Shown: piece by piece, positions 22,600 through 33,897 of the stretch
Layout of the letters: each line of letters opens with the position of its first letter
How positions within the stretch are numbered: the first letter of the stretch is position 1
DNA from: Clostridia bacterium
GTDB taxonomy: Bacteria; Bacillota; Clostridia; UBA1381
Length of the DNA: 64,000 nucleotides
Assembly (NCBI GenBank): GCA_017551095.1
Contig: JAFZMQ010000007.1
Location: 1 to 64,000 of the forward strand
Direction: 5' to 3'
Translations under genes and position numbers: made by a program
The notes under the pieces: model-generated
Database searches by the model: none
Seen by the model: the letters and a program-made list of their open reading frames with translations, nothing else
What the model was told of the DNA's origin: nothing

Positions 22600-23955
22600 T
22601 TAATTATTCAACACTATTTTAAATACAGTGCCCTCTCCCAATCTGCTTTCTACGCTAATTGTTCCGCCGTGGAGCTCAATAATGCTTTTTACCATAGAAA
22701 GTCCCAATCCGCAGCTTCCATATTCGTCATTTCTTACATCATCAATCCTGTAAAATCTATCCCATATTTTATCAATATGGTCTTTATCTATTCCGATACC
22801 GTTATCCTCTACGGTTATCTCTGTTTTATCACCGATTTGGGATGCTGAAACTAAAACTTCCCCCGATTCTTTGCCATACTTGATACCGTTACTGATAAGA
22901 TTTGTTATTGCACTTAAAAGCAGCGATTCGTCTGCCTCTGCAAAAGTGTCCTCTTTAACATTTGCAACAAGCGAAATGTTTTTCTTTGCAGCAAAGTCTT
23001 TCATACTGTCGACTGCTATATCGGAAAGTACGCTGATATCAACCTTTTCTTTGTTGAATTTCTGCCTGTTCTGGTCAATTCTTGCAAGAAGCAAAAGCCT
23101 TGAAACAAGCTGTGATACTTGATTTGCCTTATCCACAATACTTTGAGCAAGTTCTTTTTCCTTTTCATCCTTTGCAATATCCACAAGATACTCACCCTGT
23201 GCAAGAATAACGGAAATCGGCGTTCGGAGCTCGTGGGATGCGTCCGATGTAAACTGCTTTTCCTGCTTGATAAGGTTTTCGATTTTATCAAGCATTCTGT
23301 TAAGCGTAACGGACAGGTGTTGAAGCTCGTCCTCTCTTGCGTCGGGAGCAATTTCAATTCTCCTGCTGATATCCCTCTGTGCTGAAATATCATTTGCGGT
23401 TTGTATGATAGTATTTACAGGTCTGAATGCCTTTTTGGTAATATAATACCCTCCGAGTGCCGTTACAAGCAAAATAAGAGGAATTAAAATAAGCACAATT
23501 ATAATCGCGGACTTTCCTAAAAGTATTGTGGAGTTGACAGATTCCAGACCTCTTATCCAAAAACCGCCGTGCTTATCGGGAGGACTCGGCATTCTTGCAT
23601 CATAAACGATATATTCCTTGCCGTCAATGCTCTCCTTCCTTGGAACACCTTCTTTAAACGGAATATTTGTAGCGTCATAAATGTACTTTCCCACAATATA
23701 TTTCCCGTCAGCGTCATATATAGATACATTTTTAAATTCTTCTTCGTTTTCAACTATTTCAAATACACCCGGTTGTCTTTTAGACAGTTTTTCAGAAACT
23801 TGTGTAACACCCAAAATAACATTTTTTTCAATACTGTCCGTTGAAAGCTGATAAGAAAGTCCGCCAACCAAAGCGAGTACAACAACTATCAAAACAAACA
23901 TAAGTGTAGTATACCATATAGTTATTCTTGTTTTTATTGATGTGAACTTTTTCAT
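22600..23955 (-). CDS. Sensor histidine kinase with HAMP domain
   Basis: A 451-residue kinase. Membrane segments lie near 12-35 and 145-170, with an extracytoplasmic sensor between them; then HAMP, the dimerisation helix with DASHELRTPI (phosphorylated His), the N box TNLISNGIKYG and G boxes VEDNGIGI and GSCGLGLSM. It should sense an envelope signal and phosphorylate the response regulator encoded one base upstream. The pair follows the secreted CBM-like gene and lies downstream of the VTC/DUF4956 genes. Confidence 0.9.
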   Translation of the reverse strand: MKKFTSIKTRITIWYTTLMFVLIVVVLALVGGLSYQLSTDSIEKNVILGVTQVSEKLSKRQPGVFEIVENEEEFKNVSIYDADGKYIVGKYIYDATNIPFKEGVPRKESIDGKEYIVYDARMPSPPDKHGGFWIRGLESVNSTILLGKSAIIIVLILIPLILLVTALGGYYITKKAFRPVNTIIQTANDISAQRDISRRIEIAPDAREDELQHLSVTLNRMLDKIENLIKQEKQFTSDASHELRTPISVILAQGEYLVDIAKDEKEKELAQSIVDKANQVSQLVSRLLLLARIDQNRQKFNKEKVDISVLSDIAVDSMKDFAAKKNISLVANVKEDTFAEADESLLLSAITNLISNGIKYGKESGEVLVSASQIGDKTEITVEDNGIGIDKDHIDKIWDRFYRIDDVRNDEYGSCGLGLSMVKSIIELHGGTISVESRLGEGTVFKIVLNN

Positions 23956-23956
23956 T

Positions 23957-24628
23957 TTAATCTTCCTTTATGACATAACCGACATTCTTCACGGTATGTA
24001 ATAGTTTTTTTTCGTAGCCATCGTCTATTTTTTTACGCAAATGATGTATATAAACCTTTATTACATCGCTTGTACCCTCGTAATCGTAATTCCAGATATT
24101 TTCCTCGATTTTTTCCTTTGAAACGACAATTCCCTTGTTTCTCATAAGATATTCCAGAATCGAATATTCCTTTGATGACAGTTCTATCGCCAAATCTCCG
24201 CGTTTTACAACTCTTGTTGTTGTATCTACGCTTAAATCCGCAATTTCAAGCACACTTCCCGTTACATTTTCTTTTACACGAAGCATTGCCCTTATTCTTG
24301 CACAAAGAATCTCAAAGGAAAACGGTTTTGTAAGATAATCATTAGCCCCCGTATCAAGTCCCATAATAACATCTTCGTCAGCGTCCTTTGCTGTAAGCAT
24401 CAAAACGGGGGTGAGGATTTTTTTACTACGCATAATGCGTAGCACTTCAAATCCGTTTATCTTCGGCATCATAACATCAAGTATTATGCCGTCATAGGTT
24501 GTGTTTTCAATATAATACAGAGCATCCTCGCCGTCAAAACAGCTGTCAACCGTATAGCCTTGTTTTGAAAGTCTTTCTGTAATTGTTTTATTAAGATGTT
24601 TTTCGTCTTCAACAACTAAAAGCCGCAT
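23957..24628 (-). CDS. OmpR-family response regulator
   Basis: The 223-residue protein has a receiver domain with VVEDE, the phosphorylated Asp in ILDVMMP and Lys in LTKPFS, and a C-terminal winged helix (about 125-222) including IELSSKEYSILEYL and VIKVYIHHLRKKI. It starts at the ATG at 24628 after GGTGG. It is a good candidate for binding the twin TTAAC boxes upstream of the VTC gene and of the MBL lipoprotein gene. Confidence 0.9.
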   Translation of the reverse strand: MRLLVVEDEKHLNKTITERLSKQGYTVDSCFDGEDALYYIENTTYDGIILDVMMPKINGFEVLRIMRSKKILTPVLMLTAKDADEDVIMGLDTGANDYLTKPFSFEILCARIRAMLRVKENVTGSVLEIADLSVDTTTRVVKRGDLAIELSSKEYSILEYLMRNKGIVVSKEKIEENIWNYDYEGTSDVIKVYIHHLRKKIDDGYEKKLLHTVKNVGYVIKED

Positions 24629-24648
24629 AAAATCACCACCCTGCATAT

Positions 24649-24677
24649 ATTATACAACATTTTTTCTAAAAAGTAAA
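24649..24677 (-). promoter_or_regulatory. Promoter of the two-component genes
   Basis: On the minus strand TTTACT and TATAAT are 17 bases apart, 20 bases before the regulator ATG. The two-component genes can thus be transcribed apart from the upstream genes. Confidence 0.6.
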
Positions 24678-24714: not shown

Positions 24715-26994
24715 TTACTGAATTTGTCTTCTTCCAAAGCCCATACCTTCGCTACTTTGCGTTCCTATAATGGTACTTTGCTCTGTTATCTCTGTTTCAT
24801 ATGTTTCATTTCCGATTATTACAGAATATTTTTCACCGGTTTTAATACTCTTTGAAGCAATCAAAACCGCTTTATAACTTCCATTCGGAGTATATTCATA
24901 TACTACATTTCCTTTTGAGTCGGAAACTATAATCTTATCGCCTGATGTGTGTGTTTTTTCGCAGTATACCGTAACAGTATTCTGTGTAAGCCCGAGATTT
25001 GTCCCGCTCCCGTTTCCTGCGGCAAATATAAGATTTGCATTTTCGCTTATTTTTGCCGTTCCGTCAGGATCTACAATTGCAAATGCACCGGAAAATGTGC
25101 CGTTTGGATTAGTTGCTTTTATTGTTCCGCCGTTTATTTCCAGGCTTCCGTTTGCATCTAAGCAGTCATTAACTGCACAAAGTTCCAAATTACCGCCGTT
25201 TATTACAAGGCAAGTTTTCATATTGCCTCTGTTACTTCCTGTAACGCCTTCGGGCATTACACCTTCTTCCATTCTTTCAGGCGGTGTAAATTCGCCGTTT
25301 TGTGACATTTGGGGCGGTGTAAAATCGCCATTTTGGTGCATTTCGGGAGGAGCAAAATTGCCATTTTGGTGCATTTCGGGAGGAGCAAATTCTCCATCAG
25401 GCATCTGGGGCGGTTGCATGCCTGCCTGTCTTCCGTCTGTGCCTCTTTGCATTTTTTCGTCTTGTTTTCTCATTCCCCTGCCGTTTTCCTGCATTTGTCT
25501 GTCATTAGGAACGCCATTTCCTCCTTCAAATCCTTCGGGCATTGTGCGGTTTCCGTTTTCGCCTTTTGCACCAAAATCCCCGCCCGGCATTTTATTGCCA
25601 CTGTTTCCGCCCGTTGCATTTAAAGCGTCGTCAGATGAGATAACCTTTATATCACCGTTATTTATTGTTAAGACATTCTTGCTCTCGATACCTTCGGTGG
25701 ATTTTGTTATGTCAATAATGGTATCTTCACCATTTACAGTAAGGTTTCCGTGAGCTGATATCCCTTTTTCATATTTGGAGCTGATAGTGAATTTACCGCC
25801 ATTGATTTCAATTTCATCCTCACAATGAATTGCGTGGGAAGCGGAATTTATATTTATTTCGCCGCCTGAAATAGTCATAAGCCATTCAGCATTTATACCC
25901 TTTGTTGATTTTTCAAATTCCACATCAGTTGATCCTGCCGTTTCAATCGGCTTACCGTTAGTTTCTATGTTGACCGTTCCGTCCTCTATATTAACAATGG
26001 ATTCGCAGTCAATTCCGTCGCCTACGGCAGTTATGTTAACTGTTCCGCCTGTCATTTTTAAAGTGTCGTTTACATGAATACCGTCAGATTCAGCGTCTAT
26101 CGTAATCGTGCCGTTTTCAATATTCAAATTATCCGATGCCTTTATTCCGTGTCCTGCCTTTGAGTCTATGACAAGTTCACCTTCGCCTTTGATTTCAAGG
26201 TTATCCTTTGAGTAGATAGCACCGTCTTCCGAATTTTCGGCAACAAGATAATTTTTTGTACCCTTAGTGAGCGTTATATATGCTTTATCTGCGTTTTCAA
26301 CATAAATACAAGGGTTTTCACTTGAAGTGATTTTTGCCCCGCTTAAACGGAGTTTCACTTTTTCGTCTGCGGATATTATGATATTTCCGTCTGTAAGCGT
26401 TCCTGTTACGGTAAAATCTCCGCCTTTTGTAATTTTAATCTGGTTATCGCTAATTTCAACGCCTTCGCCTTCATAAGTCATATTTGTCAGGTTTATTGAG
26501 CCGACATTTTTTTTCCACGAATCATCTTCGCTACTATCTGAGGTAATAATAACTTTTTGATTATCTGCATCCCAGTCCACATTAAGTCCGAAGCTTTCAG
26601 AAATTGCACGGGCAGGGACTAATGTTCTGCCTGACACAATTTGTGCAGGAACTTCCAATGTAACGGTTTCTATGACCGAATTACCTTCATCATCTGTTTT
26701 ACCCTTATCAATCTGCAAATCGGCAGAATTGATTGAAAGCGTCACCGTTTTTGAATTTTTCCGCGCTGATACTGTTTGCGTATCAGAGTTCCACTTTACC
26801 GACGCACCCAGTTCTTCAAAAATTTTTCGTAATGGTACCATAGTTCGTCCGTCAATAATTTCAGGATTAACATCAAATTCTATTTTCTTTCCGTCAATTT
26901 CGACCGTAATTTCGTCAGCAGATACAGATTGTGTACCGATAATCAAGGTTAATACAAGACCTAAACACAAAATTATAGATAATAATTTTTTCAT
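24715..26994 (-). CDS. Secreted Cthe_2159-like beta-helix protein with copper-amine-oxidase-like N-terminal domain
   Basis: The protein has a signal peptide ending near VSADE, then a copper amine oxidase N-terminal-like wall domain (about 30-160; DGRTMVPLRKIFEELG and SGRTLVPARAISESFG). A long right-handed beta-helix follows, like the carbohydrate-binding protein Cthe_2159 (DUF4353), seen as repeated GxxNI and INGGxI turns (about 170-450 and 610-690). A low-complexity Met/Pro/Gly/Gln region, with an 11-residue repeat related to FAPPEMHQNG, interrupts it. Cthe_2159 binds acidic polysaccharides. The start could be 26994 or 27006; 26994 gives the cleanest signal peptide. Confidence 0.78.
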   Translation of the reverse strand: MKKLLSIILCLGLVLTLIIGTQSVSADEITVEIDGKKIEFDVNPEIIDGRTMVPLRKIFEELGASVKWNSDTQTVSARKNSKTVTLSINSADLQIDKGKTDDEGNSVIETVTLEVPAQIVSGRTLVPARAISESFGLNVDWDADNQKVIITSDSSEDDSWKKNVGSINLTNMTYEGEGVEISDNQIKITKGGDFTVTGTLTDGNIIISADEKVKLRLSGAKITSSENPCIYVENADKAYITLTKGTKNYLVAENSEDGAIYSKDNLEIKGEGELVIDSKAGHGIKASDNLNIENGTITIDAESDGIHVNDTLKMTGGTVNITAVGDGIDCESIVNIEDGTVNIETNGKPIETAGSTDVEFEKSTKGINAEWLMTISGGEININSASHAIHCEDEIEINGGKFTISSKYEKGISAHGNLTVNGEDTIIDITKSTEGIESKNVLTINNGDIKVISSDDALNATGGNSGNKMPGGDFGAKGENGNRTMPEGFEGGNGVPNDRQMQENGRGMRKQDEKMQRGTDGRQAGMQPPQMPDGEFAPPEMHQNGNFAPPEMHQNGDFTPPQMSQNGEFTPPERMEEGVMPEGVTGSNRGNMKTCLVINGGNLELCAVNDCLDANGSLEINGGTIKATNPNGTFSGAFAIVDPDGTAKISENANLIFAAGNGSGTNLGLTQNTVTVYCEKTHTSGDKIIVSDSKGNVVYEYTPNGSYKAVLIASKSIKTGEKYSVIIGNETYETEITEQSTIIGTQSSEGMGFGRRQIQ
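25284..25390 (-). repeat. 33-bp tandem repeat within the beta-helix protein gene
   Basis: About three and a half in-frame copies of a 33-bp unit encode the 11-residue repeat FAPPEMHQNGD and variants. The middle copies are almost identical, so copy number may vary. Confidence 0.8.
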
Positions 26995-27046
26995 ATCAAT
27001 TTCCATAGCCTTTCTGCCCACAAAAAGTAATTAAAAACGATGTTCT

Positions 27047-27159
27047 GCCTTATCTGTGGGCTGATAAGGCGTATAATGGAATTATGCACATCGCCGTTTT
27101 GCCAAAGGCAAAATATCGGCAGTGCATTTAATATAATTAACGTGATTTTTCACGTTAAT
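27047..27159. other. Three consecutive hairpins between the DUF4956 and beta-helix genes
   Basis: The gap holds three inverted repeats: GCCTTATC/GATAAGGC (27047-27070), a 42-base imperfect stem bounded by TGCAC and GTGCA (27085-27126) and ATTAACGTG/CACGTTAAT (27136-27159). None has a clear T tract. They could attenuate or process the operon transcript, or be a mobile repeat. Confidence 0.6.
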
Positions 27160-27167
27160 CCTCCTTT

Positions 27168-27845
27168 TCATTTTGGTGCTGATACGGCAAGGATAATATT
27201 AAGGTTTCCATTTCTGCACCGCAGTTCATTTATAAATTCCTGCTCGTTCTCATCGTTTTGCATAACTACATTATAGCAAAGCTCAAAGAGTGAACCTAAA
27301 TCAGTTGTTTTAATTTTTGTAAGTTTGTAGCTTTTCGTATACTTTTTAAGTATTTCATCAAAAGCACCCTCAAAATTAAGGTTTTCGGGAATTGTGATTT
27401 TCAGTGTTTTTTGAATATCCTTTTTCTCAAAAAATTTGTATTTTTCCGAAATAAGCATTATTACGCATAGCAAAATTACAAAAACCGCACCGTATCCGTA
27501 AAGTCCTACACCGCAGGCAAGTCCTGCTGCAATATCAAAGAAGATAAATCCAATGTCTTTGGGGTCTCCCGGTGCACTTCTGAAACGGATAATGGATAGT
27601 GTCCCCGCTAAACTGAACGCTCTTGCAATATTACTTCCGACAAACAGAATTATTACCGAAAGTATTACAGGCAGCATCATAAGCGTAACAGCCATATTTC
27701 TTTGATAGTTTTCCTCTTGTGTTTTATAATAGGTGAAGCCTATTATTATACCGAAAATTACCGCAATAATCATTGTGATGATTGCTGAACCGATTGTCAT
27801 ATCCTGCGATACATTTGTCAAAATATTGTTAAATAAATTATCCAT
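27168..27845 (-). CDS. DUF4956 membrane protein
   Basis: A 225-residue protein with four hydrophobic segments in the first 145 residues and the family signature SLIR-like block GTLSIIRFRSAPGDPKDIGFIF, given here in part as RFRSAPGDPKDIGF, then a soluble C-terminal domain. DUF4956 proteins are frequently encoded next to VTC-domain proteins, as here (one base apart). Their function is not established; a role in the membrane complex with the VTC protein is inference. Confidence 0.82.
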   Translation of the reverse strand: MDNLFNNILTNVSQDMTIGSAIITMIIAVIFGIIIGFTYYKTQEENYQRNMAVTLMMLPVILSVIILFVGSNIARAFSLAGTLSIIRFRSAPGDPKDIGFIFFDIAAGLACGVGLYGYGAVFVILLCVIMLISEKYKFFEKKDIQKTLKITIPENLNFEGAFDEILKKYTKSYKLTKIKTTDLGSLFELCYNVVMQNDENEQEFINELRCRNGNLNIILAVSAPK

Positions 27846-27846
27846 A

Positions 27847-28575
27847 TCAAACTACCTCTTTATATTCATAATTTACCGTTTGTTTAAACTCGGTACCGTA
27901 TTTGGAAAAAGTCACTCTTTTTATGTCAAGCTCTGTAAGCATTTTGGTAAGCCATAGCGGTTTTGCGAGTGATGTTTTGATTTCCATAAGATAAACGCCG
28001 TGAGGCAAAAGCTTTTCCCCATAGTCGCCGTGCTCCAAAGCCAAATCATATCTTCTTGAACGGATATTCATATCAAATGAGATTCTTAAATCCGCATTGT
28101 CCTTTTCAAAGTATGCAATTCTGTCGTATGCCAAATAAAGTTTCGGCGACAAATCATAAACTTTTAAAAAATATTCGAGCTCGGAGAGTACCTGTTTGTT
28201 CATATACTCCTTAAACTCCGGCGATTTTCCCGTTTCGGCAAAATCATATGCCTCAGATAGAGTAAGTGCTGTTCTGCGTTTATTTACAATACCCTTAAAT
28301 TTTTTCTTGATTTCAAGGAATACCTTTGAATTTGCATTTGGAACTCCGTATGAGCGAAGTCTTAGCTTCTCTTTATATTCCGGTTTTGTAAGCGATGTTC
28401 TTATAAGATAATCATCAGGTGTGTCAAAATATATATTTGAAATCGTATACGGAGTGTGGTTTAAATTATGTGAATCGATTACCATATGCTCATCCATAAC
28501 CTTTATTACACGCTCAAATGTTTTCTTGTCAAGCAAATATTTGTGCTCATATCTGTTAAAAACTTCTATTGCCAT
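27847..28575 (-). CDS. VTC-domain protein, polyphosphate polymerase-like
   Basis: The 242-residue protein is a VTC tunnel domain of the CYTH/TTM superfamily. NRYEHKYLL carries the first basic and acidic tunnel residues, YFDTPDD, EKLRLRSYG, EIKKKFKG and the final LMEIK follow the family order. In yeast, Vtc4 makes polyphosphate from ATP; bacterial members are annotated as polyphosphate polymerase-like, unproven here. It is the first gene of the operon that continues with DUF4956 and the beta-helix protein. Confidence 0.85.
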   Translation of the reverse strand: MAIEVFNRYEHKYLLDKKTFERVIKVMDEHMVIDSHNLNHTPYTISNIYFDTPDDYLIRTSLTKPEYKEKLRLRSYGVPNANSKVFLEIKKKFKGIVNKRRTALTLSEAYDFAETGKSPEFKEYMNKQVLSELEYFLKVYDLSPKLYLAYDRIAYFEKDNADLRISFDMNIRSRRYDLALEHGDYGEKLLPHGVYLMEIKTSLAKPLWLTKMLTELDIKRVTFSKYGTEFKQTVNYEYKEVV

Positions 28576-28603: not shown

Positions 28604-28635
28604 ATTTTAATGCCGCAAAGTTAAAAGAAGGTTAA
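28604..28635 (-). promoter_or_regulatory. Twin TTAAC box and -10 element upstream of the VTC gene
   Basis: On the minus strand TTAACCTTCTTTTAACTTT (direct repeat, 11-bp period) is followed after ten bases by TAAAAT, with no -35 box at the usual place. The same layout occurs before the MBL lipoprotein gene at 29574-29605. Such helical-phase repeats are typical binding sites of OmpR-family regulators. Confidence 0.65.
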
Positions 28636-28649
28636 TTTTAGAAAAAAAA

Positions 28650-29519
28650 TTATTGATTTATTAAAATTTTTTTACCGTCGGATAAAACCGATACATTACC
28701 GTCCTTTGTGCTGTAAATTTCGGATTTTTGCATTTTTAAAACCGATATGGTTTTATCGGAAGCAGGATTTTTTTCGCTGTCGGTAATAACTGCATACTTG
28801 GGTTTTACCGCACTAATAAATTCTTCTGTTTTTCCGTTATATCTTCCGTGATGCGGAACCTTTAAAAAGTCAAACTGCCTATCAAATTCCGATAAAACTT
28901 CGGATAATCTTTCTTTTTCGGCATCACCTGCGAATAAAAATGTGTTTTCTCCGTGCGTTACCGAAATAACAAGCGAATAATCGTTATCGCCCTCTTTATA
29001 AATCTGCTTTTTGGGAGCAGAAACCTCAAACAAAACATCATCAAGAACAAAAGATATGTCCTCTGTAAGTCTTGTAACGGTCAGGTTTTTCTCGTCAACG
29101 GTTTTTATAAATTCTTTGTATTCATCACTTATACCTTCATAATCAGGGACGACAATGTTTTTTGCCGTTATATTTTCCATAACCTCCGGAAATCCGCCTA
29201 CATGGTCTTTATCATAATGAGTTATGAAAATATAATCTACATCTGTAATATTGTTTTCCTCCAAAAATTCCGATATTTCATCACCATCGTCCTTTTCGCC
29301 CAAATCAATTATGACGTTATGGTTTTGCGTCTTTGCTATAATCGCGTCTGCTTGACCTGCTTTCATAACGGTAAAAGCGAACTGCCCTGTAACTTCCGGC
29401 AAAGATGTGTTTGTTCCACTATTTTGACATCCGCACAATAAAGAAAGTATCAAAATCAGAGCATATGCAATAGTTTTTTTAAATAGTTTCACGATTCTAT
29501 CAACTATAAGAACTCTCAT
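28650..29519 (-). CDS. ComEC-like metallo-beta-lactamase-fold lipoprotein
   Basis: The 289-residue protein has a signal segment ending LLCGC, a lipobox, and then an MBL domain related to the ComEC/Rec2 C-terminal domain. THYDKDHVGG is the metal motif, HGENTFLFAGDAE supplies a further ligand and VPHHGRY the late His pair. Stand-alone members are secreted hydrolases, possibly nucleases; the substrate is unknown. It is next to the VTC operon and shares its promoter motif, which suggests common control. Confidence 0.83.
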   Translation of the reverse strand: MRVLIVDRIVKLFKKTIAYALILILSLLCGCQNSGTNTSLPEVTGQFAFTVMKAGQADAIIAKTQNHNVIIDLGEKDDGDEISEFLEENNITDVDYIFITHYDKDHVGGFPEVMENITAKNIVVPDYEGISDEYKEFIKTVDEKNLTVTRLTEDISFVLDDVLFEVSAPKKQIYKEGDNDYSLVISVTHGENTFLFAGDAEKERLSEVLSEFDRQFDFLKVPHHGRYNGKTEEFISAVKPKYAVITDSEKNPASDKTISVLKMQKSEIYSTKDGNVSVLSDGKKILINQ

Positions 29520-29573
29520 TTTATCACCTTATTTCTCCTCCCACTTTTCTACTCTTTCTCTCAATTTAATCTG

Positions 29574-29605
29574 ATTATAAATACCGGAAGTTAAAATAAG
29601 GTTAA
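29574..29605 (-). promoter_or_regulatory. Twin TTAAC box and TATAAT upstream of the MBL lipoprotein gene
   Basis: On the minus strand TTAACCTTATTTTAACTT is followed after ten bases by TATAAT. Of these 18 bases, 17 match the VTC copy, and the spacing to the -10 box is the same. Confidence 0.7.
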
Positions 29606-29668
29606 AAAAACAAAAAAATATATAAAGCTGTTTTGTAATCAATTTCCATGCAGTAAATAAATAAACAA

Positions 29669-29786: not shown

Positions 29787-29816
29787 TATTCAAAAAACAA
29801 AAGGGTGTGTGATTTT

Positions 29817-31028
29817 ATGTATAGTAAGGAAGATGTTTTAGAATATATAGAATCGGAAGATGTAAAGTTTATAAAACTTGCGTTTTGCGATGTTTTTGGC
29901 AGACAGAAAAATATATCTATTCTTTCAACAGAGCTTAACAGGGCATTTGAATACGGAATTTCCTTTGACGCATCTGCAATTAGTGGATTTAGTGATGAGG
30001 CAAAATCCGACCTGTTTCTTTTTCCCGACCCGTCAACAATTGAAGTGTTGCCGTGGCGACCTATGCAAGGGAAGGTTGTGAGAATGATATGCGACATAAA
30101 AAATCCAGACGGAACACCTTTTGAGGCAGATACAAGAAATATTTTGAAAAATGCCGTAAGCTTTGCAAAGAAAAACGGCATAGAGCTATCTATGGGCTCG
30201 GAATTTGAGTTCTATCTTTTCAAAACAGACGATGACGGAAACCCGACAGAAGAGCCCTTTGACAATGCAGGATACTTTGATATTGCACCCTTTGACCGCG
30301 GTGAGAATGTTCGCCGTGAGATTTGCCTTACCCTTGAAAATATGGACATATATCCCGAAAGCTCACACCATGAGGAAGGCCCGGGGCAAAATGAGATAGA
30401 TTTCAAGCACTCCGACCCGTTATCAAGTGCAGATAATGCCATTACATTCAAATCTGTTACACAGACAATAGCTGCAAAAAACGGGCTTTATGCAAGTTTT
30501 ATGCCAAAGCCTGTAAAAAATTCGAGCGGAAACGGTATGCATATAAATATTTCACTTACCGATAAGTCAAAGCAGGACAGCTTTATAGCAGGTATTTTGG
30601 AAAATATTGCAGGGATTACTGCATTTTTGAATCCGATAGAACAATCGTATGTGAGGCTTGGCGAGAAAAAAGCACCGTTTTACATAACATGGGCGGAGGG
30701 TAACCGCTCACAGCTTATAAGAATTCCTGCGGAAAGCGGAGAAAGAAGCCGTTTTGAGCTCCGCTCACCTGACCCTATGGCAAATCCCTATCTTGTATAT
30801 GCACTTTTAATATATGCAGGAGCAGAGGGCGTTATAAATAAAAGAGAACTCTGTGAACCTTGCAATATCAACCTTTATAGTGCAGATAAAGAGAAAACAG
30901 AAAATTTACCGTCCTTACCAAAAACATTTGATGAGGCTATTTCTCTTGCAAAAGATAGCGAGATAGTTAAAAAATATATGCCGGATAGCATTTTGGAGGC
31001 ATTTAAAAAGAATAATAAATCGGAGTGA
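29817..31028 (+). CDS. glnA: Type I glutamine synthetase
   Basis: GlnA makes glutamine from glutamate, ammonia and ATP. The 404-residue chain has the N-terminal beta-grasp part with CDVFGRQKNI, the metal-site SEFEFYLF, GPGQNEIDFKHSDPL, NGMHINISL with the metal His, and the ATP/phosphate segment NRSQLIRIPA. It is about 40 residues shorter than typical GlnA. The adenylylation tyrosine region is not clearly present. I chose the ATG at 29817, nine bases after AAGGGTG, over the GTG inside that site. It is followed by an ANTAR regulator that begins five bases after its stop. Confidence 0.88.
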   Translation: MYSKEDVLEYIESEDVKFIKLAFCDVFGRQKNISILSTELNRAFEYGISFDASAISGFSDEAKSDLFLFPDPSTIEVLPWRPMQGKVVRMICDIKNPDGTPFEADTRNILKNAVSFAKKNGIELSMGSEFEFYLFKTDDDGNPTEEPFDNAGYFDIAPFDRGENVRREICLTLENMDIYPESSHHEEGPGQNEIDFKHSDPLSSADNAITFKSVTQTIAAKNGLYASFMPKPVKNSSGNGMHINISLTDKSKQDSFIAGILENIAGITAFLNPIEQSYVRLGEKKAPFYITWAEGNRSQLIRIPAESGERSRFELRSPDPMANPYLVYALLIYAGAEGVINKRELCEPCNINLYSADKEKTENLPSLPKTFDEAISLAKDSEIVKKYMPDSILEAFKKNNKSE

Positions 31029-31033
31029 GAGTT

Positions 31034-31627
31034 ATGCTTTTTGACAGAGAAGAATTAAGCATACTCGTTGTTTCAGCGTCTGATAAGGTTTTTGAAATAC
31101 TTACCGATTTGACTAAGGACCGATTTCATTCCGATATACACCATGCGTCAAGCGTTAGCGAAGCAAAGCGAATGATGCTTTTGCGGGATTTCGATATTGT
31201 GGTCATAAACGCACCGCTGAAAGATGAATCTGGAATAGATTTTGCGGCAAATATATCAACTGACAATTCCGCGGGTGTGCTGATTCTTATAAACAATGAA
31301 TATTACGAACAGGTTTTGGACAAGGTTATGGAATACGGAGTTTTGACGGTGTCAAAGCCCCTTTCCCGTCAAGTCTTGTACGAATCCCTTAATTTGCTTG
31401 TCGCAACAAGTTCCCGCATTAAAAAGGTGGAAAAGAAAAACGAAAAGCTAACGGCAAAGATGGCTGAACTGCGAATCGTGAATCGTGCAAAATGGGTTTT
31501 GATAGAAAATCTTGGACTTTCGGAGGAGGAAGCACACAGGATTATCGAAAAACAGGCTATGGATGAGCGTCAGTCAAAGTGTGAGGTTTCGGAGACTATA
31601 ATCCGTACATATGGCACAGAAAAATGA
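31034..31627 (+). CDS. ANTAR-domain antitermination regulator with a degenerate receiver
   Basis: The 198-residue protein has a receiver-like domain (about 8-120), a short coiled coil with KKVEKKNEKL, and a C-terminal three-helix ANTAR domain (IVNRAKWVLIENLGLSEEEAHR). ANTAR proteins bind paired hairpins in leader RNA and prevent termination. The usual phosphorylated Asp is Asn59 (VVINAP), and the acidic N-terminal pair is missing, so it should not need phosphorylation, like AmiR. The best candidate target is the terminator before glnN, directly downstream. GGAG lies eight bases before the ATG. Confidence 0.85.
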   Translation: MLFDREELSILVVSASDKVFEILTDLTKDRFHSDIHHASSVSEAKRMMLLRDFDIVVINAPLKDESGIDFAANISTDNSAGVLILINNEYYEQVLDKVMEYGVLTVSKPLSRQVLYESLNLLVATSSRIKKVEKKNEKLTAKMAELRIVNRAKWVLIENLGLSEEEAHRIIEKQAMDERQSKCEVSETIIRTYGTEK

Positions 31628-31806: not shown

Positions 31807-33897
31807 ATGAACAAAGTAACTGAAATGTTTGGGAGTAAGGTATTTAATAGTGCGACCATGAAAGAGCGTCTGCCGAAAGAGGCATATAAAGCCGTACAGA
31901 ATGCAATTAAAAACGGTAAAAGACTTGATATAACTGTTGCCGATGTTGTTGCAAATTCAATGAAGGATTGGGCAATAGAAAACGGTGCAACGCATTTTAC
32001 ACATTGGTTCCAGCCTATGACGGGCGTTACGGCTGAAAAGCATGACAGTTTTATCTCGCCTACCGATGACGGACATATCATAATGGAGTTTAAAGGAAAA
32101 GAGCTTGTTCAGGGCGAACCTGACGCGTCAAGTTTTCCATCCGGCGGACTTCGTGCAACATTTGAGGCAAGAGGCTATACCGCTTGGGACCCGACTTCAT
32201 TTGCATTTATAAAGGGAAACACACTTTGTATTCCGACAGCTTTCTGCTCATACGGCGGAGAAGCACTTGATAAAAAAACACCGCTTTTGAGGTCTATGGA
32301 GGCAATAAATAAACAGGCATTAAGAGTTTTAAAACTTTTCGGAAATGAAGCAACATCTGTTAAAACTACGGTTGGACCTGAGCAGGAATATTTCTTGGTA
32401 GATAAGGAAATGTACGATAAGCGCCCCGACCTTTTATATACGGGAAGAACATTGTTCGGCGCAAAATCACCGAAAGGTCAGGAGCTTGACGACCACTATT
32501 TCGGCACAATCAAGTCCAGAGTTGCAGCGTTTATGGAAGAACTGAACGAAGAGCTTTGGAAACTTGGAATACTTGCAAAAACCGAGCATAACGAGGTTGC
32601 ACCGGCTCAGCACGAACTTGCACCGATATTTACCACAACAAATATTGCAACCGACCATAACCAGATTACAATGGAGCTTATGCAAAGGATTGCGAAAAAG
32701 CACGGTATGGTTTGTCTGCTTCATGAAAAGCCCTTTGCTGGTGTAAACGGAAGCGGAAAACACAATAACTGGTCAATTTCAACGGCGGAGGGCGTAAACC
32801 TTTTAGAGCCGGGCGAAACACCGCACGAAAACGCACAGTTCTTGCTGTTCCTTTGCAGCGTTATAAAGGCTGTTGACGATTATCAGGATTTACTCCGAAT
32901 TTCCGTTGCATCGGCAGGAAATGACCATAGATTAGGTGCAAATGAAGCACCACCTGCTGTGGTTTCTATATTCTTAGGCGAGGAACTTACAGAAATTTTG
33001 GAGTCTATCGCGTCGGATTCATCATACGACTCAAAAGAAAGAGTACAAATGAAAATCGGCGTTCATGTTCTGCCGAGATTCCCGAAGGATACGACAGACA
33101 GAAACAGGACAAGCCCGTTTGCATTTACAGGAAATAAGTTTGAGTTTAGAATGCTTGGCTCATCTGCCTCCGTATCGGGTGCAAATATTGTTTTGAACAC
33201 GGCGGTTGCGGAGAGTTTAAAACAATTTGCTGACGAATTGGAAGGAAAAGAAAACTTTAACGACGCACTCCATGACCTTATTAAGCGTGTTATTAAAGAG
33301 CATAAGCGTATCATATTTAACGGTAACGGCTATGACGATGCGTGGATAGCTGAGGCGGAAAAGAGAGGACTTCTTAATCTTAAATCCACTCCCGATTGTC
33401 TGCCATACTATATTTCGGAAAAGAATGAAAAGCTGTTTTCAGAGCATAAAGTATTCTCACCTTCCGAGCTTAACGCAAGGTATGAGATAAAGCTTGAAAC
33501 ATACTCCAAAATTTTAAACATTGAGGCACTTACAATGGTGGATATGGTAAATAAGGATATTTTACCTGCCATTTCAGCATTTATTGGTAAGCTTTCAAAG
33601 GGAGTAAACGAGAAAAAGGCGGCTGTTGCAACAGCTGATTGCAAGTATGAGGAAAAGACAATTGCACGACTTTCAACTCTTGCGAGTGTAATTTACGACA
33701 GATGTGAGGCACTTGATAAGGCTTTAATCGGTGCTATGGACGAAGGAGATGCGTTAAAGACAGCAGCATATTATAAAGATGTAATATTTAAGGCGATGAA
33801 CGAACTAAGAATAAGCGTGGATGAGGCTGAGGTCATAACCGACAGGAAATACTGGCCTTACCCGTCATACGGTGACCTTTTGTTCAGCGTAAGATAA
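31807..33897 (+). CDS. glnN: Type III glutamine synthetase
   Basis: At 696 residues this is the large GlnN form common in clostridia and Bacteroides. Seen are [55 protein letters not shown] and [17 protein letters not shown], covering the metal and ATP sites. It makes glutamine from ammonia and glutamate and works beside GlnA. GGAG precedes the ATG. Expression is probably controlled by the leader terminator and the ANTAR protein. Confidence 0.92.

Follow-up and report, generated by a model that had tools for sequence, protein, structure and literature searches.

In the window, i.e., the whole stretch of 64,000 nucleotides of Clostridia DNA that was analysed, the same twin TTAAC box stands at two promoters of a single gene cluster, and in about 50 related clusters the class of the box follows the recognition helix of the OmpR-family response regulator encoded nearby. 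We think it very probable that the cluster's own OmpR/PhoB-family two-component system uses the twin boxes as its operator and activates promoters devoid of a −35 box; this reading is built on comparison of sequences. To what a first-pass annotation had described, we add the conservation of the box across the family, three specificity classes and their link to the recognition helix.

The boxed promoters and their gene cluster

The genes lie on one strand in the order MBL lipoprotein, VTC, DUF4956, Cthe_2159-type protein, OmpR-family response regulator and histidine kinase, and this order recurs in relatives with variations. The features are as follows:

29574-29606, minus strand: promoter P_MBL, with half-sites TTTAAC (29606-29601) and TTTAAC (29595-29590) and −10 hexamer TATAAT (29579-29574)
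28650-29519, minus strand: MBL-fold (ComEC C-terminal-like) lipoprotein gene (Pfam Lactamase_B, 1.4e-18)
28604-28636, minus strand: promoter P_VTC, with half-sites ATTAAC (28636-28631) and TTTAAC (28625-28620) and −10 hexamer TAAAAT (28609-28604)
27847-28575, minus strand: VTC-domain (polyphosphate-polymerase-like) gene (Pfam VTC, 5.2e-49)
27168-27845, minus strand: DUF4956 membrane protein gene (Pfam, 4.3e-20)
24715-27021, minus strand: gene of a Cthe_2159-type carbohydrate-binding exported protein with a Cu_amine_oxidN1 domain (Pfam, 3.4e-66 and 4.7e-35)
24649-24677, minus strand: candidate sigma-70-like promoter of the regulator and kinase genes, without a box, TTTACT-17-TATAAT (consensus match only)
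23957-24646, minus strand: OmpR-family response regulator gene, the proposed activator (Pfam Response_reg, Trans_reg_C)
22600-23955, minus strand: gene of the sensor histidine kinase paired with the regulator (Pfam HisKA, HATPase_c, HAMP)

Read from 28636 to 28604, P_VTC is ATTAAC CTTCT TTTAAC TTTGCGGCAT TAAAAT, and P_MBL, from 29606 to 29574, is TTTAAC CTTAT TTTAAC TTCCGGTATT TATAAT, so that both follow the general form WTTAAC-N5-TTTAAC-N10-(−10 hexamer). At both promoters the half-sites repeat with a period of 11 bp, within the 10-11 bp expected for the tandem direct repeats of the OmpR/PhoB family, and the second half-site ends exactly 10 nt before the −10 hexamer, as in the CiaR-type layout (6-mer, N5, 6-mer, N10, −10 hexamer). 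The half-sites of the window end in C, and the CiaR half-site TTTAAG with its invariant G was found only in relatives with GG boxes. The first half-site covers the −35 position, and the hexamers found there with spacers of 17-18 nt (ACCTTC or AACCTT at P_VTC, ACCTTA at P_MBL) do not resemble TTGACA, which is consistent with activator-dependent promoters. An Rfam search of the window gave no match.

The pattern TTAAC-N6-TTAAC occurs twice in the window, against 0.29 expected, and only one of 100 shuffles reached two. These are also its only two matches in the whole genome (1.37 Mb, ~81% complete), where coupling to a −10 hexamer gave no further perfect match; with up to two mismatches, 50 coupled boxes were counted against 77 in the control, i.e., below it. 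In a congener (G067) there are exactly two −10-coupled matches, upstream of the VTC gene and upstream of the gene preceding MBL. Thus, the twin boxes that had been noticed at these two promoters stand, on the minus strand, together with the ten-base gap and the missing usual −35 box, and the genome-wide scan that had been proposed for random matches returned none. One correction applies: MBL, VTC and DUF4956 are consecutive on the same strand, so that in this genome the two boxes mark separate starts along a single string of genes rather than distant loci. In this genome the regulon is this locus only.

The lipoprotein carries a lipobox-like LSLLCGCQ, and its match to ComEC_Rec2 (3.9e-26) is under the NCBIfam cut-off. 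Receiver (2e-28) and winged-helix Trans_reg_C (5.1e-25) domains place the response regulator in the OmpR/PhoB family, and the adjoining sensor kinase has the HisKA, HATPase_c and HAMP domains that go with this assignment. The regulator does not reach the cut-off of the PhoB equivalog (180 against 296 bits), nor that of any named NCBIfam response-regulator family, the best being cztR_silR_copR with 224 against 279 bits. No box lies directly upstream of its gene. Since the promoter candidate there is box-less (a hairpin, 24709-24681, stands just before it), the regulator-kinase pair may be made constitutively, plus by read-through.

Two other features of the window were observed. An element of ~145 nt occupies 27022-27160 (minus strand) between DUF4956 and Cthe_2159 and has seven copies in the genome; five copies were compared, and the others among these are 87-91% identical to this one. 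Its fold consists of three strong hairpins (−44.7 kcal/mol, z −7.0). Each of the five copies runs directly up to the start codon of its own, different gene (...GTGGGCAGAAAGGCTATGGAAATT), to which it adds an N-terminus MEI-x; for four of the five, a co-directional upstream gene ends within ~11 nt of the element start. In neither G067 nor L216 does the element stand at the DUF4956/Cthe_2159 junction, and Rfam gave no match for it. It resembles a mobile structured leader, inserting between adjacent same-strand genes. Elsewhere in the window, an ANTAR-domain response regulator gene (31025-31627) lies between two glutamine synthetase genes (29805-31028 and 31807-33897) and ahead of an ammonium-transporter-like gene, which looks like an antitermination-controlled nitrogen operon.

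Conservation of the box and its pairing with the recognition helix

The box with exact N5/N10 spacing is present in 45 of the 52 distinct regions upstream of VTC orthologues (identity of at least 58%), against 0 of 52 reversed regions and 84 of 5000 random segments of 320 bp. Start codons were anchored in this final scan, and TCTAA variants also exist besides strict TTTAA. In L078 and L099 the box is upstream of the co-directional upstream MBL gene and not of VTC, and in G023 (L093) it lies farther upstream. Counting TTAAC pairs across the family had given 14 sites against ~13 in the control, with no enrichment outside the window's clade, and from there it emerged that base 6 of the half-site varies among lineages, being C, T or G. 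Both halves agree at this base in 42 of the 45 boxes (CC 8, TT 14, GG 20), and the other three are GT. By itself, the TTAAT pattern has little specificity when genomes are AT-rich (40 sites against 28 in the control), and thus it was used only together with gene context. Both window promoters do lie in AT-rich intergenic DNA, and one might see in the boxes just this context or a chance likeness of two related promoters. The score of 45/52 against 0/52 with exact spacing, the same base changes in both halves, and the fact that the only two genome-wide matches are both here refute this explanation, to which we give practically no credit.

The linked regulators fall into three recognition-helix classes: SDVIKVYIHHLRKKI, which is that of the window and its clade, TNVVDVYIRYLRKKI and SNHVEVYISFLRKKL. 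In the window helix, Lys197 of the listed open reading frame aligns with Glu215 of Mycobacterium tuberculosis PhoP (MtbPhoP). When the boxes within 7 kb of a regulator (53 boxes, about 50 loci) were typed by the residue aligned to Glu215, K/R went with CC in 13 cases and with TT in one, D/S with TT in 30, and E with GG in nine. As the regulator classes are related proteins, these 53 boxes are not independent events, and the tree supports few switches. Helix residues 194, 197, 201 and 202 vary together.

In a test set of 20 loci, whose regions were chosen by regulator similarity alone, the predicted box was found, mostly in other families; four of the 20 were already known through VTC. The predicted box is found also at loci without VTC, at loci where the boxed gene encodes an unrelated exported protein, and at a non-orthologous VTC-DUF4956(-CotH) operon (L325, L326, L364, L365). 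In four genomes (G077, G087, G456 and G386) the regulator (79-89% identical) adjoins a different VTC-DUF4956 operon, whose VTC is ~30% identical to the window's and which includes CotH in three of the four; the box there is C/C. The K-class loci L199, L200, L361 and L363 gave no box, their contigs stopping before the VTC promoter. It is on this covariation that the proposed assignment of the boxes to the window regulator rests, and it supports the earlier suggestion of an OmpR-family activator encoded in the cluster.

Could another OmpR-family regulator, global and PhoP- or WalR-like, bind the box, the linked one being incidental? The Bacillus subtilis PhoP half-site TTAACA shares the TTAAC core and the 11-bp period of the window boxes, and about a dozen response-regulator candidates are encoded in the genome. 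However, the boxes of B. subtilis PhoP form longer arrays in phosphate genes, and the window regulator is under every NCBIfam phosphate-regulator cut-off. A global regulator would also be expected to have more than two genomic sites, whereas the box tracks the helix of the linked regulator at about 50 loci and accompanies it in other families, even beside a non-orthologous operon. A further point in favour of a global regulator comes from G022, G027 and G042 (L003, L005 and L010), where the promoter of an unrelated OmpR-family regulator (28-29% identical, helix RAVDVYMTKLR with D) contains a TTTAAC-N5-TTTAAC-N10 box; this unrelated system would seem to be autoregulated. All considered, we find a global regulator quite improbable.

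Because of this D-type regulator with a TTTAAC box, a universal residue-to-base code for the OmpR family was rejected. Two other helix positions were discarded as determinants: Asn or Asp at the Asn212 position, as Asn occurs together with K and CC boxes in L366, and the residue at the Ser219 position for T, as the T class has Arg, Leu, Ser or Thr. Whether this OmpR-type family switched its operator specificity largely through one helix position, with the regulator-box pair moving as a transplantable insulated unit to new targets, is in our opinion an evenly balanced question.

The regulon in relatives and the origin of the MBL promoter

In 70 genomes of the family, the GG pattern gave 99 sites against 16 control matches, and about 1-7 sites are present in the genome of each relative whose box is of the G type. 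Among 30 GG sites examined, one per genome, 24 stand before VTC, Cthe_2159, regulator, MBL or DUF4956 genes, many of them unlinked. Boxes in autoregulatory position precede the regulator in L087, L095, L113, L204, L367, L376 and L379; an unlinked regulator in G039 has its own TT box, and in G054 and G055 TT boxes are found at unlinked Cthe_2159 genes. The same kind of box is found before MBL in L076, L078, L099, L218, L219 and L220. Other boxed genes encode exported proteins: nitroreductase-like lipoproteins, beta-helix proteins, and proteins with repeats that, on reading the sequence, resemble PepSY domains. The small regulon of cell-surface genes envisaged in the first-pass annotation is thus borne out in relatives, where VTC-DUF4956, beta-helix proteins of the Cthe_2159 type, MBL lipoproteins, the regulator and other exported proteins are boxed. 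As a separate observation, in L153 (G001) and L157 (G005), of one genus, a conserved TTAAGGTGGTATTAAG box stands 10 nt before the −10 hexamer of a gene that reads like ruvC, outside the cell-surface theme.

Comparison with G067 points to the origin of the MBL promoter, and adds one feature to the window:

29499-29519, minus strand: scar of seven codons (MRVLIVD) left by a deleted second response-regulator gene

In G067, an intact second response-regulator gene (RR', MKVLIVDDAVELNN...) lies between the same box and MBL, overlapping the start of MBL. In the window, the scar is the in-frame start of the MBL lipoprotein gene, and the box is now directly before MBL. The window MBL promoter is inherited from that of the lost gene. 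Because the effector domain of the G067 RR' protein is weak (31 bits), it may not bind DNA. Second regulators upstream of MBL, with a degenerate winged helix and their own box, were also seen at L075:4365-5030, L090:593-1261 and L107:1146-1814, and they could possibly serve as a phosphate sink or partner.

Proposed mechanism and comparison with known systems

In the mechanism that we propose, the phosphorylated regulator would bind the two 6-bp half-sites as a head-to-tail dimer, lie over the −35 position, leaving 10 nt to the −10 hexamer, and bring RNA polymerase to promoters without a −35 box, as CiaR does. The window regulon would comprise MBL, VTC and DUF4956, with Cthe_2159 reached by read-through; in relatives, VTC operons linked to CotH, the regulator gene and further exported proteins would join it. 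The regulator and both half-sites would have changed together (E-G, D-T, K/R-C).

The closest likeness is with CiaRH of streptococci and BAS0540-BAS0541 of Bacillus anthracis, which have tandem 6-mers with a 5-bp spacer 10 nt from the −10 hexamer, an OmpR-family regulator with a sensor kinase, and a small regulon (PMC3091779, PMC4938410). The CiaR site is NTTAAG-N5-TTTAAG, with the −10 placed ten nt downstream in promoter searches and a final G of TTTAAG that is extremely important (PMC3091779). The GG class shares with CiaRH the half-site TTTAAG and the helix E (PMC3091779, PMC4938410), as the CiaR helix VVEVYVSKVRKKL, by which alone the proteins were compared, has E at the position aligned to MtbPhoP Glu215 (PMC3091779). 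The systems differ in that the window class has TTAAC and other relatives TTAAT, and in their targets, htrA and csRNAs for CiaRH, and VTC, DUF4956, Cthe_2159, CotH and MBL here. A repressor that covers the promoter and blocks polymerase could also bind such a site, which overlaps the −35 position, but both the missing −35 hexamer and the strict 10-nt gap suit an activator, as in the promoters of CiaR, so we regard repression as unlikely.

MtbPhoP, PmrA and KdpE likewise place tandem DNA-binding domains on a direct repeat, of 11-bp period in MtbPhoP as in the window, with helix alpha8 in the major groove (PMC4832192, PMC4660055). Their half-site sequences differ from the window's, and the window helix has Asp, Lys, His and His at MtbPhoP Asn212, Glu215, Ser219 and Tyr220. 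In MtbPhoP, Glu215 makes contact with C19'/G18', which pair with the final two bases of the motif (PMC4832192), and when TCACAG is aligned with WTTAAN the covarying base falls under the Glu215-equivalent residue, which probably reads half-site base 6. Cytosine or adenine could donate a hydrogen bond to E or D, and guanine could accept one from K/R, which would suit G, T and C, respectively; we infer this with caution, as other helix residues change too and the unrelated regulator breaks the rule.

In Gram-positive Pel loci, the accessory genes cotH, polyphosphate polymerase and DUF4956 form the same VTC-DUF4956(-CotH) set, with no such regulator described in the passages on them (PMC7112168); unlike in those loci, no Pel genes were seen in the window cluster. 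The literature searched contains no account of VTC/DUF4956 genes regulated by such a system. The tandem-site architecture is known, and the specificities and the regulon are new.

For the widespread and little-studied VTC-DUF4956-CotH/Cthe_2159 set of gut Clostridia, these results name a regulator candidate and an operator that can be predicted. As the residue and both half-sites differ together in about 50 related clusters, the wiring would be predictable from sequence, and the series of joint changes makes sequence-to-specificity prediction testable for OmpR-family regulators. It also bears on how paralogous two-component systems stay insulated from one another. If the proposed switching of regulator and box is true, it would constitute a naturally occurring, readable set of regulators that are insulated from each other.
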